A stretch of DNA of 64,000 nucleotides from Leeuwenhoekiella nanhaiensis (GTDB lineage: Bacteria; Bacteroidota; Bacteroidia; Flavobacteriales; Flavobacteriaceae), in contig NZ_KZ319289.1 of assembly GCF_002744755.1 (NCBI RefSeq), positions 248,001 to 312,000 of the forward strand. The letters are read 5' to 3'. Below the pieces are notes generated by a model. It ran no database searches. It was not told the origin of the DNA and was given only the letters and a program-made list of their open reading frames with translations. This document shows, piece after piece, positions 3,982-18,129 of the stretch; position 1 is the stretch's first letter; each line of letters starts with the position of its first letter. The position numbers and the translations under genes were made by a program.

Positions 3982-5526
3982 GTGACATTGAAAGACTTCA
4001 GAATTAAATTAAAGGAGATCTACCTGCCCTTTGTATTAGTATCCATCTGTACTATATTTTTTTATAATCTCTTCAGATGGGTTTTTGATATCAGGCTTGG
4101 CATACTTCCATTAAAGGAAGACCTGCTTGATATCTGGATCCCTTTTATAATTCCGGTGTTGCCCGTATCGATTTGGCTTAGACGCCCAATCAGAATTTTA
4201 AAACTTAAAGATCCAGACAGGGGGCGTACAGCTATTCAGGCTCTAATGATTTTTGCTATAGTTGCTCCTATAGTTATAAGCCAGCAGTATATAAAAAAAG
4301 CTGCATTTGATCTGGTCACCCTAGAAAATGCAAGCGAGATTAAAAGTCTTGGGGCTGAAAAGTATTTTAAAATCAACAATTTTCGGGTAAATAAAGATGC
4401 GCGTGTAGCGTATGCCACTGCACGAACATCGGGAAAGGGAAATGACCGTCTCAATTTCTTTTTGTATTTGGCCTGCCCTTTTGAAAATGCCGAAAATGCC
4501 TGGTATGGCGTTGAATACAACGAGAGTACCGGCAATACGGGCACAACTACGCAGCAGAATGCCTGGTTCAGCAATTTTCTGAAGTATTCGGAAAGGGATT
4601 TTGCCAATTATCCTTTTCAGGATGTATCCTACTTTGAAAAAGTGGCATATTCTGATCATTGGGATGGCTATATGCAAGCGATTAAAAATGAAAGTCCCAG
4701 TGCAGTTGAAAACCAACAAATAATTCTGATTCCTAAAGCGGATGAATTTGAAGAACGATTAGGTGACACTTTACCCTGGGTGTTCGGATCGTTTGGTATT
4801 GGTTGTATGGTAATCCTGTTATCTCTTCTTTATCAAAAAATCGACGAATCTACTTTGAGTAACTTCAAAAAGAATAAACCCCTGGAAGATGACGATCTTA
4901 GAGCTATTTTGAGATTTTTAAACCCGTTAGGATCCAAAGGAGGAACAGCTATTTTAATCTTTGTAAACATTGGAGTTTTTGTAGGGATGATTTTTTCTGG
5001 TATAAGTTTCGTCTCGCCTACAGGAACCGAACTTTTAGAACTTGGAGGGCTTAGAAAAACGGAAGTAGTACAGGGAGAATACTGGAGGCTTTTTACATCT
5101 ATTTTTATTCACTCCGGTTTTATTCATCTCGTTATGAATATGGTGGGACTGGTATTTGGCGCTATCTTACTTGAAGATGTTTTGGGAAAAGTCAGGTTCA
5201 TTCTAAGTTTTATAGCTTGTGGTGTGCTCGCCAGCTTTGCGAGTATTTACTGGCATGAGAATATAGTAAGTGTAGGCGCTTCAGGTGCCATTTTTGGTCT
5301 TTACGGGTTAATTTTAGCTTTTACGGTATTCAGGATTTATTCAACAGGAACACGGACATTAACCTGGGGCCTACTGGTTCTTTATGCGGGAGTAAGTTTG
5401 ATCTTTGGGTTCTTTTCGACAGGTGTTGATAACGCAGCACATGTAGGCGGACTCCTTAGCGGCTTTATTCTGGGAGTTCTACTGATCGCTTTTGATAAAG
5501 AAAACCTTATAAAAACGGCAGGTTAG
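3982..5526 (+). CDS. rhomboid-family intramembrane serine protease
   Basis: The C-terminal 200 residues form a rhomboid domain: HxxxN in transmembrane segment 2 (His382, Asn386), the nucleophile Ser434 in GASG, and the general base His487 in AAHVGG. The serine/histidine dyad is complete, so activity is expected. The N-terminal 300 residues hold two or three membrane segments and a soluble part of about 170 residues between them, an extension seen in larger Bacteroidota rhomboids. It would cleave single-pass membrane proteins inside the bilayer; substrates are unknown. The start is GTG at 3982, and TTG at 3988 would be an alternative. Confidence 0.88.
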   Translation: MTLKDFRIKLKEIYLPFVLVSICTIFFYNLFRWVFDIRLGILPLKEDLLDIWIPFIIPVLPVSIWLRRPIRILKLKDPDRGRTAIQALMIFAIVAPIVISQQYIKKAAFDLVTLENASEIKSLGAEKYFKINNFRVNKDARVAYATARTSGKGNDRLNFFLYLACPFENAENAWYGVEYNESTGNTGTTTQQNAWFSNFLKYSERDFANYPFQDVSYFEKVAYSDHWDGYMQAIKNESPSAVENQQIILIPKADEFEERLGDTLPWVFGSFGIGCMVILLSLLYQKIDESTLSNFKKNKPLEDDDLRAILRFLNPLGSKGGTAILIFVNIGVFVGMIFSGISFVSPTGTELLELGGLRKTEVVQGEYWRLFTSIFIHSGFIHLVMNMVGLVFGAILLEDVLGKVRFILSFIACGVLASFASIYWHENIVSVGASGAIFGLYGLILAFTVFRIYSTGTRTLTWGLLVLYAGVSLIFGFFSTGVDNAAHVGGLLSGFILGVLLIAFDKENLIKTAG

Positions 5527-5707
5527 TATGTGCTATGCTTTAAAGCCTGACTTGCAGATTGAACATAACGAGGTCTGAATGCGGGTGTTTTTCCCCTAAA
5601 TCACATTTAAAACCAGCAAATTGAGGATTTCCTTACTTTTTAATTAGGGGGATTTGGTAGATTTATAATATTAATATAAATGGCTGAGTAACTATAATTG
5701 AAATTTA

Positions 5708-6766
5708 ATGCAACAAGACTACCAACAATTAATATCAAGTGTAAGAGGCAGAATTAATCCCGAAAATTTTGCCTTAAAAAAGTCGTTTTCTGATGAATTA
5801 GCAACAATTTCATATAGTAAGGTCTTAATTTATGTTAGGCTTGCAATGAAAAGTGTTGAACCGGAATATACTCAAAAAAGTAAAAATGCAGGAGAACGGG
5901 TTAAAGAGCACCTTAATAGAGAATTAGAAAATGTTTCCTTTAGATATCAAGGTTCCGTTATGACCAACACACACATAAGGGGATACAGTGACATAGACCT
6001 ATTGACAATTTCAGACAAATTTTATTCATACGATGCAAGTAGAATTAAAGAACTTTTAGCTAGCTCTGAACGACGAGCAAAATATTATAATTCTTCAATT
6101 GAGAAATTAGAAAGAGAAGTAAATACATCACCATATTTAGGTAACTCAATACAAGATTTAAGAGACTTAAGAAATAATAGCGAGAATATTTTAAGGGGGA
6201 TCTATAGCGTCTGTGATACTTCGAAGCCAAAGGCAATTAAGATTAAGAATTTAAGTTTAAACAGAGAAGTTGATATAGTTATTGCAAATTGGTATGATGA
6301 TATTTCTTCAATAATAAACAATAAAGGAGATTATAGAGGTATTCAAATTTATAACAAGGCTTCAAATTCAAAAGAAAATCCTGATTATCCATTTTTAAGC
6401 ATAAAGAGAATAAACGAGAGAAGTTCAGAAACAAATGGAAGATTAAAGAAAATGATTAGATTTCTTAAAAATAGTAAAGCAAATTCTAATCAAGACATCT
6501 CGTTAACAAGTTTTGATATCAATGCTATATGTTATGATATTAGCCCTAATATTTATAAAAGTCTCACATTCTATGAATTAGTGCCGATCATTTATAATCA
6601 AATGAAGGATATTGTTACAAATGATGATAAAGCTAACAATTTAGTCTCTGTTGACGGAAGAGATTATATCTTCAGATATCACCAAACAAAAAGAGATGAC
6701 TTAAGTAAATTGCTCTCAGAAATTGAGGCAATATTTATTGATTTAAAGAAAAGTATAAATGTATGA
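5708..6766 (+). CDS. cdnE: CBASS cyclic-dinucleotide synthase (CD-NTase, CdnE-like)
   Basis: A nucleotidyltransferase of the DncV/cGAS superfamily. The active site is visible as Gly82-Ser83, then Asp95 and Asp97 in GYSDIDL, and the third carboxylate Asp189 in EVDIVIA. The length (352 aa) suits a CD-NTase. Its stop codon overlaps the ATG of the TIR-STING gene (ATGA), so the two are translationally coupled. CD-NTases found next to bacterial STING are of the CdnE clade and make cyclic di-GMP, which binds STING; that product is inferred from the partner. There are no Cap2/Cap3 genes, so this is a minimal type I CBASS. The gene is AT-richer than the chromosome around it, consistent with acquisition by transfer. 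Confidence 0.87.
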   Translation: MQQDYQQLISSVRGRINPENFALKKSFSDELATISYSKVLIYVRLAMKSVEPEYTQKSKNAGERVKEHLNRELENVSFRYQGSVMTNTHIRGYSDIDLLTISDKFYSYDASRIKELLASSERRAKYYNSSIEKLEREVNTSPYLGNSIQDLRDLRNNSENILRGIYSVCDTSKPKAIKIKNLSLNREVDIVIANWYDDISSIINNKGDYRGIQIYNKASNSKENPDYPFLSIKRINERSSETNGRLKKMIRFLKNSKANSNQDISLTSFDINAICYDISPNIYKSLTFYELVPIIYNQMKDIVTNDDKANNLVSVDGRDYIFRYHQTKRDDLSKLLSEIEAIFIDLKKSINV

Positions 6767-7692
6767 TTAGACCAAAAATATTTATCGGTTCTTCAAAGGC
6801 TGGATTAGAAGTTGCAATAAAAGTTAAAGTTCATTTATCAGAGATAGCTGATTGCTTTATTTGGTCTGAACCTGATATTTGGGAACCAAACCGAAGTACA
6901 TTTGATAACCTTATCCGAATGTCAAATTATTTCGATTTTGGAGTTTTCGTTGGGACCGCTGATGATTTGACAGAAACTAATGAAAAATTAGTTATAGAAG
7001 CAAGAGACAACGTCATTCTGGAAATGGCGTTATTTTTAGGAGCAATGGGCCATAATAAGTCTTTTTTATTAGTCGAAAGCGGTATAAAACTTCCATCTGA
7101 CTTCAACGGAATTTATATGCCTCGTTTTGAAAAAAATGATGAAGCTTCAATAAAATCTGCTTGTGAATCTTATATGTTGAAGATAGGAGAGCATTACAAA
7201 TTAGGTCATTTAAGCCTCTATCCTACCACTGCATTAGCAATTGGGTACTATAAAAATTTTATTGCAGATTTAGTAGAAAGTGTTCACACCGCGGAAACTA
7301 TGAAGATTGATGGTGTTGAATACACAGAGTTTAAGCTCAAGGTTGTCATTCCAAATGATTTGAAAGGTTTAATAAGGGAAAAAGCCCACATTTTTTATAA
7401 ACGTAATGGCTTTTCAGCTAACGCGATGAAAGCAAAATTCAGAAAACATCATTTGTGGTTTCAATTAGACCCTAAAAATGCACCAACAGCAATTATGTAT
7501 GATATGCCGAGTACGCTAACTGGGATTGATGATGCTATCGAATTAATACTACAAAAAAACTTTACAGGTAGAACTAGAATACAAGAGTTAATTGAGCAGA
7601 GAGAATTGAATAATTTCAGGAGAGTTTTACAAATGCAAATAGATAATAGTCCTTTCGCTCAACAGACTGTTGAAATAATAGACGAATTCTAA
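6763..7692 (+). CDS. TIR-STING CBASS effector (NADase)
   Basis: The N-terminal domain (about residues 1-140) is the TIR-like nucleotide-binding fold. It opens with KIFIGSS, and RDNVILEMALFLGAMG carries Glu87 in the position of the TIR catalytic glutamate. The C-terminal domain (about 150-309) looks like bacterial STING: ALAIGYYKNFIADLVE (from residue 157) resembles the first STING helix, LAWSYYIGYLRLIL in the human protein. In characterised systems, cyclic di-GMP binding makes TIR-STING form filaments and destroy NAD+, killing the infected cell. Together with the upstream CD-NTase this is a complete two-gene system. The STING assignment rests on motif reading and gene context, not on a profile search. 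Confidence 0.83.
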   Translation: MIRPKIFIGSSKAGLEVAIKVKVHLSEIADCFIWSEPDIWEPNRSTFDNLIRMSNYFDFGVFVGTADDLTETNEKLVIEARDNVILEMALFLGAMGHNKSFLLVESGIKLPSDFNGIYMPRFEKNDEASIKSACESYMLKIGEHYKLGHLSLYPTTALAIGYYKNFIADLVESVHTAETMKIDGVEYTEFKLKVVIPNDLKGLIREKAHIFYKRNGFSANAMKAKFRKHHLWFQLDPKNAPTAIMYDMPSTLTGIDDAIELILQKNFTGRTRIQELIEQRELNNFRRVLQMQIDNSPFAQQTVEIIDEF

Positions 7693-7850
7693 AATTAGTC
7701 TGAGCATAGTAGTAAAAAAGGTATATAGAAATAGCGTATTAATCAATTAATTAACAGAAAATAAATAATTTAAGATCGGTTGTAAGCTTAGAATTTTGTG
7801 CTTGGAACCGCTTCCTTTCATATACAAGACAGTTATAGCGCATTTGATAA

Positions 7851-8894
7851 ATGATAATTGAGAACAAGAAAATATGGCAACAAGCTTGCGGAGATACAGA
7901 CAGAAATTATTCAAGAATCTGTCTGAAATGGGACGTCATTCTTAATGGACCCGGTTATGCAGGAAAATATCCTGAGTGCAATGAAATCTTAAAAAACCAC
8001 GGTTGGAAATCTAAAAAAAGAACTGACTTATGGCGTTTTGCCGAACAAATGGAAAATGGAGATTTAGTTGTTCTTCGATTAGGAACAAATACTGTCCTTG
8101 GAGTTGGTCAAATAATTGGAGACTATGAATGGCTCGAATGTTTTGGAGATGTTGATGGTTGGGATTTACAACACGTCAGACGTGTGAATTGGCTATGGAA
8201 TGGAATTAACACTCCAAAGTACTTTAACACTTACGCTCTGAAACAAGGAGACACAACTCAAGAAATGACTTCTGATGTTGTCAAAGATTGGTTAAGAGAA
8301 CTCAATATTCCTGAAGAACAGTATGACAAGCAGCTAACAGAACTACCTAAAGAAGGACGCTCAATAGACCAAAATGAAATCGCTGAATATCTTTTTGAGC
8401 AAGGAACCTCAAGCAATTCAATTGAAAACTTAACCAAGGAGTTTGACGAACTCAGGAGAATTGCAAAATGGTATGTGGGAAAAGCAACTCCTTCTGAGTT
8501 CGAAACTGTTTCTTATTTGGTTGTTCCAATTTTAAGAGCGTTAGGGTGGACACCACAAAAAATGGCAATTGAATGGCATAAAGTAGATTTAGCTCTTTTT
8601 GACCAGCTTCCAAGAAAGGATGATAATCTATCTGTAGTAGTTGAAGCTAAGAAAAAAGGTAATTCTTGTTTATCTGCAAAAAGTCAGGCACAAGGTTATG
8701 CACAAGGAAAAGAAAACTGCAAAAGACTTATTGTAACTGACGGATTGAGATATGGAACGTATATCAAGTCAGAAAATGAATATAAACTCAAAGCATACTT
8801 CAATCTGACCGATTTACGAGAGAGCTATCCAATTTATGACTGTTTGGGAATTAAGGAGGCATTAAGAATTATGACACCTGAATGGAGACAATAA
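7851..8894 (+). CDS. EVE-like domain fused to a PD-(D/E)xK nuclease domain
   Basis: The N-terminal half (about residues 1-135) resembles an EVE/PUA-like reader of modified bases, with GDLVVLRLGTNTVLGVGQII followed by DYEW. The C-terminal half (about 200-347) resembles the N-terminal nuclease domain of type I restriction HsdR. Its core is visible as Asp246 in KVDLAL and Glu265-Ala-Lys267 in VVVEAKKK. It could therefore recognise modified or foreign DNA and cut it, as in type IV restriction. No methyltransferase or helicase accompanies it. It is the first gene of a tight four-gene operon (11, 17 and 12 bases between genes) with two TIR proteins and a caspase, so it may be part of that system or simply carried along with it. 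Confidence 0.72.
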   Translation: MIIENKKIWQQACGDTDRNYSRICLKWDVILNGPGYAGKYPECNEILKNHGWKSKKRTDLWRFAEQMENGDLVVLRLGTNTVLGVGQIIGDYEWLECFGDVDGWDLQHVRRVNWLWNGINTPKYFNTYALKQGDTTQEMTSDVVKDWLRELNIPEEQYDKQLTELPKEGRSIDQNEIAEYLFEQGTSSNSIENLTKEFDELRRIAKWYVGKATPSEFETVSYLVVPILRALGWTPQKMAIEWHKVDLALFDQLPRKDDNLSVVVEAKKKGNSCLSAKSQAQGYAQGKENCKRLIVTDGLRYGTYIKSENEYKLKAYFNLTDLRESYPIYDCLGIKEALRIMTPEWRQ

Positions 8895-8905
8895 AAAATT
8901 AACGA

Positions 8906-9331
8906 TTGGGAATATTTGATTGGATATTTGGAGAAGAACCTCAAAGGTCAAGGCGAATCTTTATAAGTTTCGCTATTGAAGACTCTATATATAGAGATTA
9001 CTTGATAAGTCAGGTTAAGAACAAAAAATCTCCTTTTGAATTTATGGACATGTCAGCTAAAAAACCTTGGAGACAATCTGAGTGGAAAAAGAAATGTCGC
9101 ACAAAAATTAAAAGAAGTGACGGAGTTATTGTTCTCTTGAGTAAAAATACTTGGCATGCAGGAGGGGCGAGATGGGAAATTAAATGTGCAAGGGAAGAGA
9201 AAAAACCAATAATTGGAATGCACATTAGAAAGAATGACAAAGGGGCAATACCTCCAGAATTAAAAGGTAGAAGAGTTGTGCTTTGGTCATGGACTAATTT
9301 GGAGAAATTCGTAAGTAGTATAAAAATCTAA
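8906..9331 (+). CDS. thsB: ThsB-like TIR protein 1 (MTH538-type TIR domain)
   Basis: A single TIR-like domain of the MTH538/ThsB type fills the 141 residues. RRIFISFAIED is the first strand and loop, FEFMDMSAKKP is typical of ThsB-like proteins, KRSDGVIVLLSKNT is the central strand, and ARWEIKCAREEKKP contains the presumed catalytic Glu91. In Thoeris systems such proteins sense phage and turn NAD+ into a cyclic ADP-ribose-type messenger. The start is the TTG at 8906, giving MGIFDWIFG; no earlier ATG exists and a later one would remove the first strand. It lies 11 bases after the nuclease gene and 17 before its paralogue. Confidence 0.8.
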   Translation: MGIFDWIFGEEPQRSRRIFISFAIEDSIYRDYLISQVKNKKSPFEFMDMSAKKPWRQSEWKKKCRTKIKRSDGVIVLLSKNTWHAGGARWEIKCAREEKKPIIGMHIRKNDKGAIPPELKGRRVVLWSWTNLEKFVSSIKI

Positions 9332-9348
9332 ACATTAAAATATCAGTT

Positions 9349-9720
9349 ATGACTAATAAAAAAGTACTTTTTATTGCTTTTGCAATTGAAGACGAAAGAC
9401 AAAGAGATTTTTTAAAAGGTCAATCTCTATCACCTAGAGCTCCTTATGAATTTGTCGATATGTCTGTAAAACAACCCTATGATTCTGAATGGAAAGAAAG
9501 AGTTCGTACCCGCATTCGAAGATCAGATGGTGTAATTATTTTGGTGAGTGAGAATTCATTGAATTCTAGCGGTCAAAAATGGGAAATTCAATGTGCCAAG
9601 GAAGAGAAAAAGAGAGTTTTGGGAATTTGGGCATACAGATATGATCGGACAAATATAGTTGGAGTAAATACTAAAGTATGGTCTGATAAGAATATTTCAG
9701 ATTTCATAGATAGCCTATAA
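9349..9720 (+). CDS. thsB: ThsB-like TIR protein 2 (tandem paralogue)
   Basis: The same MTH538-type TIR domain as its upstream neighbour, in a compact 123 residues: KVLFIAFAIED, then FVDMSVKQP, RRSDGVIILVSENS and QKWEIQCAKEEKKR with the presumed catalytic Glu79. The core motifs match the first copy closely, while the C-termini and the residues after YEF/FEF differ. Several ThsB copies sharing one effector are known in Thoeris and are thought to widen the range of phages sensed. It is followed after 12 bases by the caspase gene, in the same operon. The N-terminus lacks the IFDWIFG tail of copy 1. Confidence 0.8.
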   Translation: MTNKKVLFIAFAIEDERQRDFLKGQSLSPRAPYEFVDMSVKQPYDSEWKERVRTRIRRSDGVIILVSENSLNSSGQKWEIQCAKEEKKRVLGIWAYRYDRTNIVGVNTKVWSDKNISDFIDSL

Positions 9721-9732
9721 AGACTAAGTATT

Positions 9733-10707
9733 ATGAAAATAGCATTGATTGTAGGAATAGATTATTATCAGCATGGTTCTGAGTTACATGGCTGTGTAAA
9801 CGATGCTTATAATGTGAAATCCGTATTAGAAAGGAATAGTGGCGGAGATGTGAATTTCGATTGTAAATTGATAACAGCTTCAAGCTATAGCGATTCAATC
9901 TCAAGAGCAAGTTTAAAGGATGATATAGAACAACTTTTTACTACTGATTCTGAAATTGCATTATTCTATTTTGCAGGTCATGGCCACATTGAATCAACAG
10001 GTGGCTATTTATTAGCTTCCGACTCCAGTCGGGGAGATGAAGGTGTATCACTTGCTGAGATTTTAATTTTAGCAAACAAATCACCTGCGATAAATAAAGT
10101 GATTATTTTGGATAGCTGTCACTCGGGTATTGCCGGTTCTTCTCCAAGTGGTGACCAGTTAGCCAATCTATCTGAAGGACTTACAGTTTTAACCGCCTCT
10201 ACCAAAGACCAATATGCAACAGAAGCAAATGGTAGCGGAGTATTTACAACTTTACTTGTTGACGCCTTAAATGGAAGTGCGGCAAACTTGACGGGAGATA
10301 TTACTCCAGGAAGTATATACGCTCATATTGATCAATCCTTAGGTGCTTGGGAACAGAGACCAGTATTTAAGACTAATGTAAAAAAGTTCGTTTCACTTCG
10401 AAAAGTTGCACCTTCTATTCCTATTGAAGATTTAAGACGAATTGCTGAATTATTCCCGAAAGCAGGATTTGAATTCTCATTAGACCCAACATTCGAACCT
10501 GAAATAAAAGGTCGTGATGACGAAATGCCTGATCCAATTCCAGAGAACACAAGATTATTTTCGCTTTTGCAAAAATTCAATCGTTTAAACCTTGTTACTC
10601 CTATTGATGCTCCTCATATGTGGCACGCTGCAATGGAATCAAAGTCCTGTAAGCTAACAGTCTTAGGGGAACATTACAGAAAGCTTGTTGAAAAAGGAAG
10701 AATCTAA
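9733..10707 (+). CDS. caspase-like protease, probable type IV Thoeris effector
   Basis: Peptidase C14 (caspase/metacaspase) fold in the N-terminal 220 residues. The first strand is [11 protein letters not shown], the catalytic His83 lies in YFAGHGH, and the nucleophile Cys129 in [18 protein letters not shown] and [12 protein letters not shown] continue the fold. The C-terminal 100 residues form a separate module ending [20 protein letters not shown], which may bind the signal or gate activity. In the TIR-caspase system named type IV Thoeris, a TIR protein makes N7-cADPR, which activates the caspase to degrade cell proteins. Gene order and tight spacing here fit that model. It is the last gene of the operon and lies at the 3' edge of the island. 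Confidence 0.82.
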
Positions 10708-10719
10708 AAAGAAAAATGC

Positions 10720-10860
10720 ACTACAGCAGCACATATAGCTTAAATCGGGTAAACGGATGCTAGGCAATATTTCGCTTCGTAGCCAATTTTGGTTTCGGAG
10801 CGCAGGGCCCGAAAGTGATTCGAAATCGACACAAGCCATATGCAAACCGTTGAACTAAGC
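10720..10860. repeat. attC-like imperfect inverted repeat at the defence-island edge
   Basis: GCACATATAGCTT at 10729-10741 pairs imperfectly with AAGCCATATGC at 10833-10843. The outer flanks (CTACAGCA and CAAACCGTTGAACT) are only loosely complementary. The roughly 90-base interior holds further self-complementary GC-rich words (TTTCGCTTCG, GGTTTCGGAGCG). Nothing here is coding. The shape, a long imperfect palindrome directly behind an acquired gene, resembles integron attC sites, but no integrase is present in the window. Confidence 0.4.
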
Positions 10861-10913
10861 ACTCCCATTTAACCATTAACAATTAATTCTCAAACCCCTA
10901 TTCATCACATAAA

Positions 10914-10947
10914 AAAGCCCTTTCCAAACAGAAAGGGCTTTGTGTTT
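10914..10947. terminator. bidirectional terminator between caspase and msrA
   Basis: AAAGCCCTTTC and GAAAGGGCTTT form a perfect 11-bp stem around CAAACA. A runs lie on the left and T runs on the right, so it can end transcription from both converging genes. Confidence 0.85.
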
Positions 10948-10962
10948 TTTACAAACTATACC

Positions 10963-11667
10963 TTAGTGGCTGTTGGCTTTTAAAAGTTCAGGAAACTTCG
11001 CTTTAAAGCGGTTTAAACGGGGTATCGATACGTTTTGAATATAGGGATTATCGGGGTGCTGTACCTCGTAGTTTTGGTGGTAGGCTTCCGCTTCCCAAAA
11101 CACATCAAAAGGTTTAACCTCTGCGGCTACCGGCTCGCCCAGTTTTTCGGCCAACGCGGCTTTCTTTTGATCTATAATTTCCTTTTCGGCTTCATTCTGG
11201 TAAAAAATAATCGAGCGGTATTGCGAACCGCGATCGGGTCCCTGCCCGTTTACCTGCGTAGGATCTTGCGAACCAAAATACACATCTACCAGCTGGCTAA
11301 AACTCACTTTTGCGGGATCGTAAATCACCTTAACCGCTTCGGCGTGACCGGTGCGGCCGGTGTTGCTTTCTTCATAGGTAGGGTTTTTGGTATGGCCGCC
11401 GGCATATCCGGAAACGGCTTCACGTACGCCTTCCACGCTTTCGTAGATGGCTTCCACACACCAAAAACAGCCGCTGGCAAAGTATGCCGTGGCTTCTTCC
11501 TGAGTGGGCTCGTAAGTAAGGCTGTCTGCCTGTACAGCCTCAGGTGCCTGAGCTTCAAGCTGGGCTTTATCTTTTGCAGTACCGGGTTTATTGGCACACC
11601 CGTTAAACAGGAGGCTCAGGGCCAATGTTCCGGCAATTAAAGCTGCTATGATGATTCTATTTTTCAT
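10963..11667 (-). CDS. msrA: peptide-methionine (S)-S-oxide reductase MsrA, lipoprotein form
   Basis: Repairs methionine-S-sulfoxide in oxidised proteins using reduced thioredoxin. The catalytic motif GCFWC is at residues 66-70 (Cys67 nucleophile), followed by GYAGGHTKNPTYEE, GHAEAV and DPTQVNGQGPDRGSQYRS, all hallmarks of MsrA. The N-terminus is a lipoprotein signal with LFNGC (lipid cysteine Cys24), which places the enzyme in the cell envelope. I start at ATG 11667, since a longer frame from 11703 would place a hydrophilic segment before the signal peptide. It is a single gene converging on the defence operon. Confidence 0.93.
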   Translation of the reverse strand: MKNRIIIAALIAGTLALSLLFNGCANKPGTAKDKAQLEAQAPEAVQADSLTYEPTQEEATAYFASGCFWCVEAIYESVEGVREAVSGYAGGHTKNPTYEESNTGRTGHAEAVKVIYDPAKVSFSQLVDVYFGSQDPTQVNGQGPDRGSQYRSIIFYQNEAEKEIIDQKKAALAEKLGEPVAAEVKPFDVFWEAEAYHQNYEVQHPDNPYIQNVSIPRLNRFKAKFPELLKANSH

Positions 11668-12039
11668 AAAAATCGGGGCTTGGTAATCCATTTTGTAATG
11701 CACGTCTTTCGTTATACAAAGTTCGATTACTGGGACGCAAAATTAAGACCAAACTTTCATAAGATGCTGCTAAAATTCAGGCTATTTTCCCAAAAGTTTC
11801 ACAGCGGCAAACCCCTCCGTTTGTGCGCGATTGTATCGCGTTCCTTGTGGTTTTAATTTCCCATAGATATTTATAGTTTGAAGTATTTTCTTTTCTTTTT
11901 TAGCTCGTGTCATTTGTATTATACGGGAACTCGTGAACCTCGTGCCTCGGTTTGCATCGCCCAAAAAAGAAACTGACTTTAGGAGGCTCATCACCTTCGA
12001 ATCACGATCAATCAAAACTTTAATAATATCGGTTACGAA

Positions 12040-14395: not shown

Positions 14396-14880
14396 AACTA
14401 TTACTTCAATGAGTATTTCTGTCCCTTTTTTCCATAGATGAAAAAAGGAACCGACCCCGAAGCTTCGGGGCTAGGCTGACAAAGCTTTATCTAAATTTAT
14501 CATTCGCTCGCTAAATTTTAGAAACTCGCTTGATTACCTCTCTAAAAATCAAAATACGTTTAGCTCAAACAGTCTAAAATTTTTAACGCTCCCTCATTTC
14601 AAATTTCACGATAAACCTTTGTAGGCCGATGCTGACGTCTTAATTGGCTTATGAGATTTATATTTAACCTGTTTAAAAAGTTATGAGGTATTCAAATCCG
14701 AAGGATTAAATGACTTACAATTTTCCAATAACTTGTAAATAATCTAATGTTTTAGAGTTATTCTTCTTTAGCCTTCTTTTTCTTCAGTATAGCAATAAGT
14801 TCCCGTTAAAAATTTTCGAAGCCTTGGAGAAAATTTAGGGGACTTATTGCGGTTTTGCCTCTGAGGGCAAAAATACCTAA
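14396..14880 (+). repeat. modular intergenic repeat, copy 3
   Basis: Near-identical at both ends to the copy at 15085-15575. Shared blocks are the TTTTTTCCAT hairpin, CCCCGAAGCTTCGGGG, GACAAAGCTTTATCTAAATT, AAATTTCACGATAAACCTTT, AGGCCGATGCTGACGTCTTA and AAATTTTCGAAGCCTTGGAG. The centre (14525-14600) differs completely between the two copies. Confidence 0.8.
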
Positions 14881-14969
14881 GAAATGTGCCTGAGAGTAAT
14901 AACAATGTAAAACCCAAATTATCATAGGCACATTATATCTGGCCAAAACCAATAGGCGAGACAGATAAA

Positions 14970-15640
14970 AAAGGCTCCTTTCTTTTGGTTCGTTTTCTTT
15001 GGAGAAGCAAACCGAGGTGCGAGGTTCACGGGGTCCAAAACTAATTATGGGCACTGATCTAAAAAGAATACTAGTTTTTCATTTCGTTTTCCTGTCCCTT
15101 TTTTCCATCGATGAAAAAAGGAACCAACCCCGAAGCTTCGGGGCTAGGCTGACAAAGCTTTATCTAAATTTATCATTCGCTCGCTAAATTTTAGAAACTC
15201 GCTTCTACTTTTAAGTAATGCAGGGCCAACGCGGCAAGCTGGCTCATTCGCTAGAATAGTCCACAGGACTATTCTTTAACGCTCTGCCCTAAATTTCACG
15301 ATAAACCTTTGTAGGCCGATGCTGACGTCTTAATTGGCTTATGAGATTAATATTTAATCTGTTTAAAAAGTTATGAGGTATTCAAATCCGAAGGGTTAAA
15401 TGACTTACAATTTTCCAATAACTGGCAAATAATCTAATGTTTTAGAGTTATTCTTCTTTAGCCTTCTTTTTCTTCAGTATAGCAAAAAGTTCCCGTTAAA
15501 AATTTTCGAAGCCTTGGAGAAAATTTAGGGGGCTTATTGCGGTTTTGCCCCTAAGGGCAAAAATACCTAAGAAAAAGTGTCTTTTCTTTTGTTTCTTTTC
15601 TTTGGACAGGCAAAGAAAAGAAAGGAACAAACTATAGGAA
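14970..15640 (+). repeat. modular intergenic repeat, copy 4
   Basis: It opens with the boundary palindrome around TTTCTTTGGAGAAGCAAACC and then repeats the constant blocks of the copy at 14396-14880 in the same order. It closes with TTTCTTTGGACAGGCAAAGA near 15600. Its variable centre (15205-15285) contains its own short hairpin, AATAGTCCACAGGACTATT. Confidence 0.8.
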
Positions 15641-17689: not shown

Positions 17690-18015
17690 ATCTGTTCATT
17701 TTCTTTGCTTCTCCAAAGAAAACGAACCAAAAGAAAAGAGTACTAAAGAATAAGATTTCTGGTCCTAAAAAAATATTCGTTTAAGGTTGTGCCAGAGAAA
17801 AGCTAATTAAAACACCAGGACCGGCCTACAAAGATTTAGCGTAAAATTTGAAAATAGGGAGCGTTAAAAATTTTAGACTGTTTGAGCTAAACGTATTTTG
17901 ATTTTTAAGGAGAATAATCAAGCGAGTTTCTAAAATTTAGCGAGCGAATGATAAATTTAGATAAAGCTTTGTCAGTCTTGATCTTTTGGTTCTTTTGTAT
18001 CAAGACAAAAGAACA
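17690..18015 (-). repeat. modular intergenic repeat, inverted copy 5
   Basis: Read on the minus strand, it begins with TTCTTTTGTCTTGATACAAA. It continues through AAGCTTTATCTAAATTTATC and the same central segment as the copy at 14396 (TCAAAATACGTTTAGCTCAA), then a variant of the GGCC...TTAATTGGCTT block. It ends in TTTCTTTGGAGAAGCAAAGA. The shared centre links it to the copy at 14396 and not to the copy at 15085. Confidence 0.75.
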
Positions 18016-18129
18016 GGAAGTCTAATTGAATTTACGATTCCAATTCATAGGAGTGCTCTGTTCATTTTCTTTAGCTCGCTATCGCTTATTGGTTTTGGGG
18101 CTCGAATTATTTTCATTAGTAAAATGTTA

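Follow-up and report, generated by a model that had tools for sequence, protein, structure and literature searches.

Why should a single caspase-like protease be preceded by two TIR proteins? The question arises from a stretch of Leeuwenhoekiella nanhaiensis DNA of 64,000 nucleotides (the window; RefSeq assembly GCF_002744755.1, contig NZ_KZ319289.1, positions 248,001 to 312,000, here G000:C3:248001-312000, from a genome of 4.37 Mb in 49 contigs), in which two TIR genes, TIR1 and TIR2, run directly into a caspase-like gene. At the gene level it is close to certain that window positions 8906-10707 hold a TIR-caspase system, the parts of which are the following.

8906-9331, plus strand: TIR1, accessory ThsB-type TIR, 141 residues, TTG start, Glu91 (PF08937, 1e-14)
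9349-9720, plus strand: TIR2, core ThsB-type TIR, 123 residues, Glu79 (PF08937, 1.3e-9)
9733-10707, plus strand: caspase-like protease, 324 residues, His83/Cys129 (PF00656, 3.2e-18)
10405-10704, plus strand: C-terminal module of the caspase (residues 225-324), candidate signal sensor (17 invariant columns in 33 sequences)

The initial annotation had seen here a four-gene operon resembling type IV Thoeris, with two ThsB copies and a nuclease gene; the TIR-caspase core of three genes was borne out, while the nuclease has to be set aside. According to passages of PMC12847820, the TIR protein of type IV Thoeris makes N7-cyclic ADP-ribose (N7-cADPR), which activates a caspase-like protease. By architecture the window operon would be type IV Thoeris, with TIR and caspase-like genes in one operon and the catalytic residues kept; what differs is the second, distinct TIR (TIR1). 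The comparison with the tested type IV system is one of descriptions only, and the founding study, reportedly Rousset et al. 2025 in Science, may already mention loci with two TIRs. Overall, we consider it rather likely that 8906-10707 is a type IV Thoeris-like TIR-caspase abortive-infection system with an accessory TIR.

Both TIR proteins belong to the ThsB family, as had been proposed. With PF08937 (ThsB_TIR), for which 21.2 bits is the curated cut-off, TIR1 reaches 55.1 and TIR2 38.8 bits; their matches to the ThsB models of PADLOC are weak (best 8e-8 and 1.5e-6). The predicted catalytic residues Glu91 and Glu79 share one alignment column, which holds a glutamate in 99 of 100 TIR rows; the other row is a piece of a frame-broken gene (L091). 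The AlphaFold2 model of TIR1 has a predicted local distance difference test score (pLDDT) of 87, and its matches in the PDB include a Bacillus cereus TIR (8fz9), EcThsB (8wcf), EcThsB2 (8v6t) and ThsB (9b7d, 6lhy).

For the caspase, 231 relatives were found in 84,980 species genomes; the best 80 of these, on which the counts are based, come from many phyla and align over almost the whole query at 53-77% identity. The His83/Cys129 dyad was recognized correctly in the initial annotation, both residues being identical in all 85 rows of the family alignment (84 distinct loci, as L002 and L047 are the same contig). With the NCBIfam model NF047832 (caspase_w_EACC1) the protein scores 97.5 bits, under the curated cut-off of 140. 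The fold search with its AlphaFold2 model (pLDDT 88) found the caspase fold in the top 50 matches listed, the best PDB match being MALT1 paracaspase (3.6e-13); among solved structures, only distant caspases were found for this family.

TIRs were counted when they lie on the same strand and in one run with the caspase, with gaps of at most 350 bases. By this rule, at least one TIR is present in 77 of the best 80 loci and at least two in 14. In a plasmid sample of 13 caspase loci, hand-chosen from 52 records, all have a TIR and three have two, while on viral contigs a TIR accompanies the caspase in nine of nine loci and none truly has two. Two loci were over-counted where a frame-broken TIR gives two open frames, and are taken as having two TIRs (L091) and one TIR (L188); L108 is counted through its 980-residue TIR protein, and at L212 a further annotated TIR lies beyond the gap limit. 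All of ten second TIRs compared with Pfam match a TIR model, nine reaching the curated cut-off and one (L083) staying below it. Hence, TIR and caspase genes occur together well outside the window, and because two TIRs were counted in 14/80 loci and 3/13 plasmid loci, two TIRs per caspase locus are a recurring minority layout and not peculiar to the window, where they had been taken for an unfamiliar variant.

The two TIRs are also not copies of each other, as the wording 'two ThsB copies' implied: they are 44% identical and fall into different clades. The tree was computed from 100 rows, namely same-strand TIR open frames of less than 400 residues near a caspase, leaving out opposite-strand TIRs (L063, L065, L091, L106), the 980-residue protein (L108) and the duplicate contig L002. 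TIR1 falls into a clade of five rows, termed accA (support 99/99), all from two-TIR loci, and a further clade of 11 rows, accB (97/90), is confined to loci with at least two TIRs. Every TIR row outside these two was termed core. TIR2 is part of this large class, and in most loci the caspase has a close relative of TIR2 as its only TIR. A second sample, made up of the plasmid and viral loci and assigned by best match, gave the same picture: all 20 loci that count as one-TIR (L212 included) have a TIR of the core class, while plasmid second TIRs match accB best in three of three cases.

With TIR1 as the query, three more accA loci (G132, G645, G464), each with a core TIR, came to light in genomes of the phylum (395 searched) and of the order (326 searched). 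In all, accA is observed with a caspase in the window, G284 (a broken copy), L044, L053, L066 and G464, and with a TIR-8xMP protein in G132 and G645. A core TIR is present in all eight loci, and accA was not seen as the sole TIR. When the tree was recalculated with the three added loci, the eight accA rows formed one clade with nothing else inside (FastTree support 0.99). Judged by their sequences, TIR1 and TIR2 are not equals but members of an accessory and a core class, a distinction newly described here, and TIR1 looks like a dedicated partner instead of a spare sensor, which we favour without regarding it as proven.

These data bear on the reading of the initial annotation, in which two equivalent, redundant sensors each sense their own phages and make the same signal for one caspase. 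Both proteins keep the catalytic glutamate and match ThsB_TIR, and Thoeris is usually described, in the passages of PMC11204291, as a single ThsA accompanied by one or several ThsB. If TIR1 were sufficient, however, accA would be expected as the sole TIR at least sometimes, which is the case in none of the eight loci, and the TIR of the 20 second-sample loci counted as one-TIR would not be expected to be core-class throughout. We therefore regard redundant sensing as unlikely, though worth serious consideration.

An accessory role of TIR1 receives further support from loci in which the effector differs. The G464 locus encodes accA, an accB-like TIR, the caspase and a core TIR, while G645 and G132 encode accA, a TIR-8xMP membrane protein and a core TIR and have no caspase match. 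Between G464 and G645, identity is 97.5% for the core TIRs (122 residues) and 87.5% for the accA proteins; at the DNA level, the two TIR genes align (88% and 80%), and blastn gave no match for the sequence that separates them. Since the core TIRs are nearly identical and the intervening DNA is unmatched, the TIR pair, as far as sequence comparison can tell, stays together while the killer changes. This suggests that accA and the core TIR form an exchangeable pair. Core-like TIRs are also found beside 8xMP genes without accA (L197, L198), and the 8xMP proteins beside core-like TIRs look like an alternative effector.

A more far-reaching interpretation, that accA and the core TIR make up an obligate two-protein sensor-cyclase cassette for different killers and that TIR-8xMP is a second receptor of the type IV signal, is possible but falls short of being probable. 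In that case, the near-identical core TIRs of G464 and G645 would point to the same messenger for the caspase and TIR-8xMP, and TIR-8xMP would be an undescribed receptor of the type IV signal, i.e. a new Thoeris effector type. Among the papers listed by a literature search from 2021 on, none has the word 8xMP, which is weak evidence that the TIR-8xMP link is unpublished. In either case, G464 and G645, with nearly the same core TIR and two effectors, are a ready test system, and a TIR class seen only with a core TIR, yet with different effectors, separates recognition from killing and offers a handle on the part of the caspase that reads the signal. The 8xMP proteins beside core-like TIRs are encoded at L221:5089-5967, L196:5494-6165, L197:4679-5488 and L198:5421-5969; two of the four are fused to a TIR-like domain.

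TIR1 might alternatively be an effector or regulator of its own, an NAD+ hydrolase or a membrane-bound brake, that merely shares the operon. Six accA proteins (L044, L053, L066, G464, G645, G132) carry an N-terminal hydrophobic segment, with a mean hydropathy of 1.7-2.1 over 17 or 19 residues (the broken copy of G284 was left out of the scoring), which fits a membrane role, and some TIRs are NAD+-depleting effectors according to passages of PMC12847820. However, accA keeps with the core TIR when the effector changes; hence it appears to follow the cyclase and not to act alone, and we consider an independent function of TIR1 quite improbable.

For the preferred reading, a type IV Thoeris-like system with an accessory TIR, a mechanism can be outlined by joining the observed layout, catalytic residues, co-occurrence and pairing of the TIR classes with what is published on type IV and type I Thoeris as regards the signal, the activation, the killing and the way in which the TIRs divide the work. 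It is very probable that TIR proteins here produce a small messenger which switches on the protease. Upon phage infection, accessory TIR1 and core TIR2 would assemble, with TIR1 contributing recognition and/or completing a composite TIR active site. TIR2, the presumed cyclase of nicotinamide adenine dinucleotide (NAD+), would convert NAD+ to a cyclic ADP-ribose (cADPR), presumably N7-cADPR. The signal would bind the caspase, most likely via the C-terminal module, and the activated caspase would cut cell proteins and halt phage growth.

A split into recogniser and catalyst has a precedent in the type I Thoeris of Staphylococcus aureus, where, in the passages of PMC12578639, ThsB1 binds a capsid protein and recruits catalytic ThsB2. 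That system shares with the window two TIRs per effector, while its effector is the NAD+-degrading ThsA and that of the window a caspase. Two ThsB per effector are likewise described, in passages of PMC11204291, for the type II (TM-macro) Thoeris of Escherichia coli CFT073, in which EcThsA is encoded with EcThsB1 and EcThsB2; its TM-macro effector and its signal differ from the window system with its caspase, and EcThsB2 and EcThsB are among the proteins that the TIR1 model resembles. No mention of an accessory TIR for caspase systems was found in the titles, beginnings of abstracts and passages searched, subscription journals lying outside the search. How TIR systems recognise phages, and why many have multiple TIRs, is still largely open.

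Several points weigh against this assignment of roles. The 100-row TIR tree is based on 133 columns and has long branches, and its bootstrap values had not yet converged; a small number of TIRs in the core class are the second or third of their locus (L055, L057), and accA is known from eight loci only, one of them broken. Three of the 80 caspase loci, and additionally G428 (L161), have no TIR in the run. TIR1 may itself be a signal maker, as its catalytic glutamate and its fold are kept, and in the related Streptococcus equinus-type system, as passages of PMC12578639 put it, ThsB1 and not ThsB2 is catalytic and suffices for one phage. Finally, TIR1 of the window has no N-terminal hydrophobic segment and starts with a TTG at 8906, 11 bases past the nuclease stop, so that it might be impaired; an insertion of the nuclease gene may have clipped it at this locus.

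As to the part of the caspase that reads the signal, the C-terminal module pointed out in the initial annotation is real and strongly conserved, with many invariant positions between residues 241 and 318 in the 85-row alignment. The window caspase shares the caspase fold and the His/Cys dyad with MALT1 paracaspase and metacaspases; unlike these, it has a C-terminal module of its own without a solved relative found, the PDB search giving no credible relative and one match at chance level (E 0.67). Among 395 genomes of the phylum six match the module, five with the same caspase family and the sixth with a 32-residue open frame (E 0.006). From 72,556 plasmids 40 records were retrieved, 36 annotated as caspase where they match, one as hypothetical protein only and three unannotated. 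Since it is conserved and seen so far only in the same caspase family, the module is a natural candidate for the signal reader. The idea that the module is a widespread sensor on other effectors was dropped, as neither the 395 phylum genomes nor the 72,556 plasmids provided an example.

Nine enterobacterial plasmid records (H116-H124; L223) match the caspase over codons 1-128 only, stopping just before the catalytic cysteine; a TIR is also matched in at least eight of the nine, and in the one such locus that was fetched the TIR gene comes after aadA1. A more distant full-length relative at L161:4906-5856 (G428), from the same order as the window organism, has no TIR in its run. On plasmid p4 of Rhizobium binae (L212:3963-4948), a DUF1273 gene and another TIR gene come after the caspase.

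In 28 of 107 caspase loci, the window not among them, a gene of ~90 residues with a ryanodine receptor (RyR)-like domain directly follows the caspase (L052, L069, L074, L079, L082, L084, L087-L091, L093-L098, L100-L103, L105-L107, L204-L207). Of 18 members compared with PF02026, 10 match at E <= 0.01, and the 11 PDB matches are all weak (best 0.0023), the ten best being ryanodine receptor domains. As a phage RyR-domain protein breaks down cADPR signals, according to passages of PMC13232231, the gene could by analogy be a built-in off switch or a signal reader.

The TIR-caspase genes are part of a run of six same-strand genes, in the order CD-NTase, TIR-STING effector, nuclease-like, TIR1, TIR2 and caspase, between a rhomboid gene (3982-5526) and a gene on the minus strand (10963-11703) which, by eye, we take to be msrA-like. 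The remaining features of this region are the following.

5708-6766, plus strand: CD-NTase of a cyclic oligonucleotide-based antiphage signalling system (CBASS; PADLOC cyclase, 1e-152)
6763-7692, plus strand: TIR-STING effector of the CBASS (PADLOC TIR effector, 1.9e-118; Pfam prok_STING, 6.9e-38, and CAP12 TIR, 1.4e-25)
7851-8894, plus strand: nuclease-like neighbour gene, probably not part of the system (HSDR_N, 0.015, below cut-off; PADLOC PDC-S02, 5e-9)
10914-10941, no strand assigned: two-way terminator-like hairpin in the gap between caspase and msrA (consensus scan)
5686-10860: site of changing cargo beside the rhomboid gene (also L150:4350-7212 and L152:5170-10636)

The consensus scan found three terminator-like sites where 2.7 are expected in shuffles, and a scan for sigma-70 promoters gave no excess (20 found, 20.2 expected).

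The nuclease gene has a weakly recognisable HSDR_N-like PD-(D/E)XK C-terminus and an N-terminus that presumably is PUA/EVE-like. That it forms one functional operon with the three TIR-caspase genes might be supposed from the common strand and the short spacers (11 bases from nuclease to TIR1, 17 from TIR1 to TIR2, 12 from TIR2 to the caspase), and it abuts a TIR1 with a shorter N-terminus than its relatives. The four-gene order did not recur, however: a nuclease relative is present in none of the 107 caspase loci, some of which are on short contigs. Matches to the nuclease were found in 15 of 395 genomes, its own included, and six of the 14 others were examined; none of these neighbourhoods has a TIR by profile or a TIR, caspase or CBASS relative by tblastn with the window proteins, while restriction-modification genes in some and an integrase in one were seen by eye. 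The nuclease was thus rejected as a fourth component; a functional four-gene operon is very improbable, and the gene is probably a separate restriction-type gene.

The CBASS pair directly upstream (5708-7692), to which the initial annotation made no reference, is a second, separate defence system, the TIR-STING gene of which also matches the NCBIfam Cap12 models below their cut-offs. That the caspase answers this CBASS cyclase and not the TIRs is scarcely credible and was discarded: the pair does end only 158 bases ahead of the nuclease gene, but the 107 caspase loci contain no CD-NTase relative and only few, partial TIR-STING-like matches (L065, and by an earlier blastp of open frames L050 and L052), and the CBASS has its own TIR-STING effector. 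The nuclease and CBASS genes share a defence island with the TIR-caspase system without being parts of it.

The island has probably been acquired as a block, at a site with changing cargo. A full-length caspase relative is missing from all 12 further genomes of the genus, three of which have partial matches inside large proteins. In G398, a sister species, collinearity with the window extends across the rhomboid gene and stops at window position 5685, 22 bases before the CD-NTase. There a different gene takes over (864 residues, by eye a PHP-ATPase), followed by 127 columns that match window 10861-10984; msrA is absent from this contig piece. In G397, a rhomboid remnant and msrA (71%) are ~5.4 kb apart, with other genes between them. 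Elsewhere in the window, positions 14764-14992, 15454-15574, 2570-2941 and 17953-18033 are pieces of an apparent intergenic repeat family common to sister genomes of the genus.

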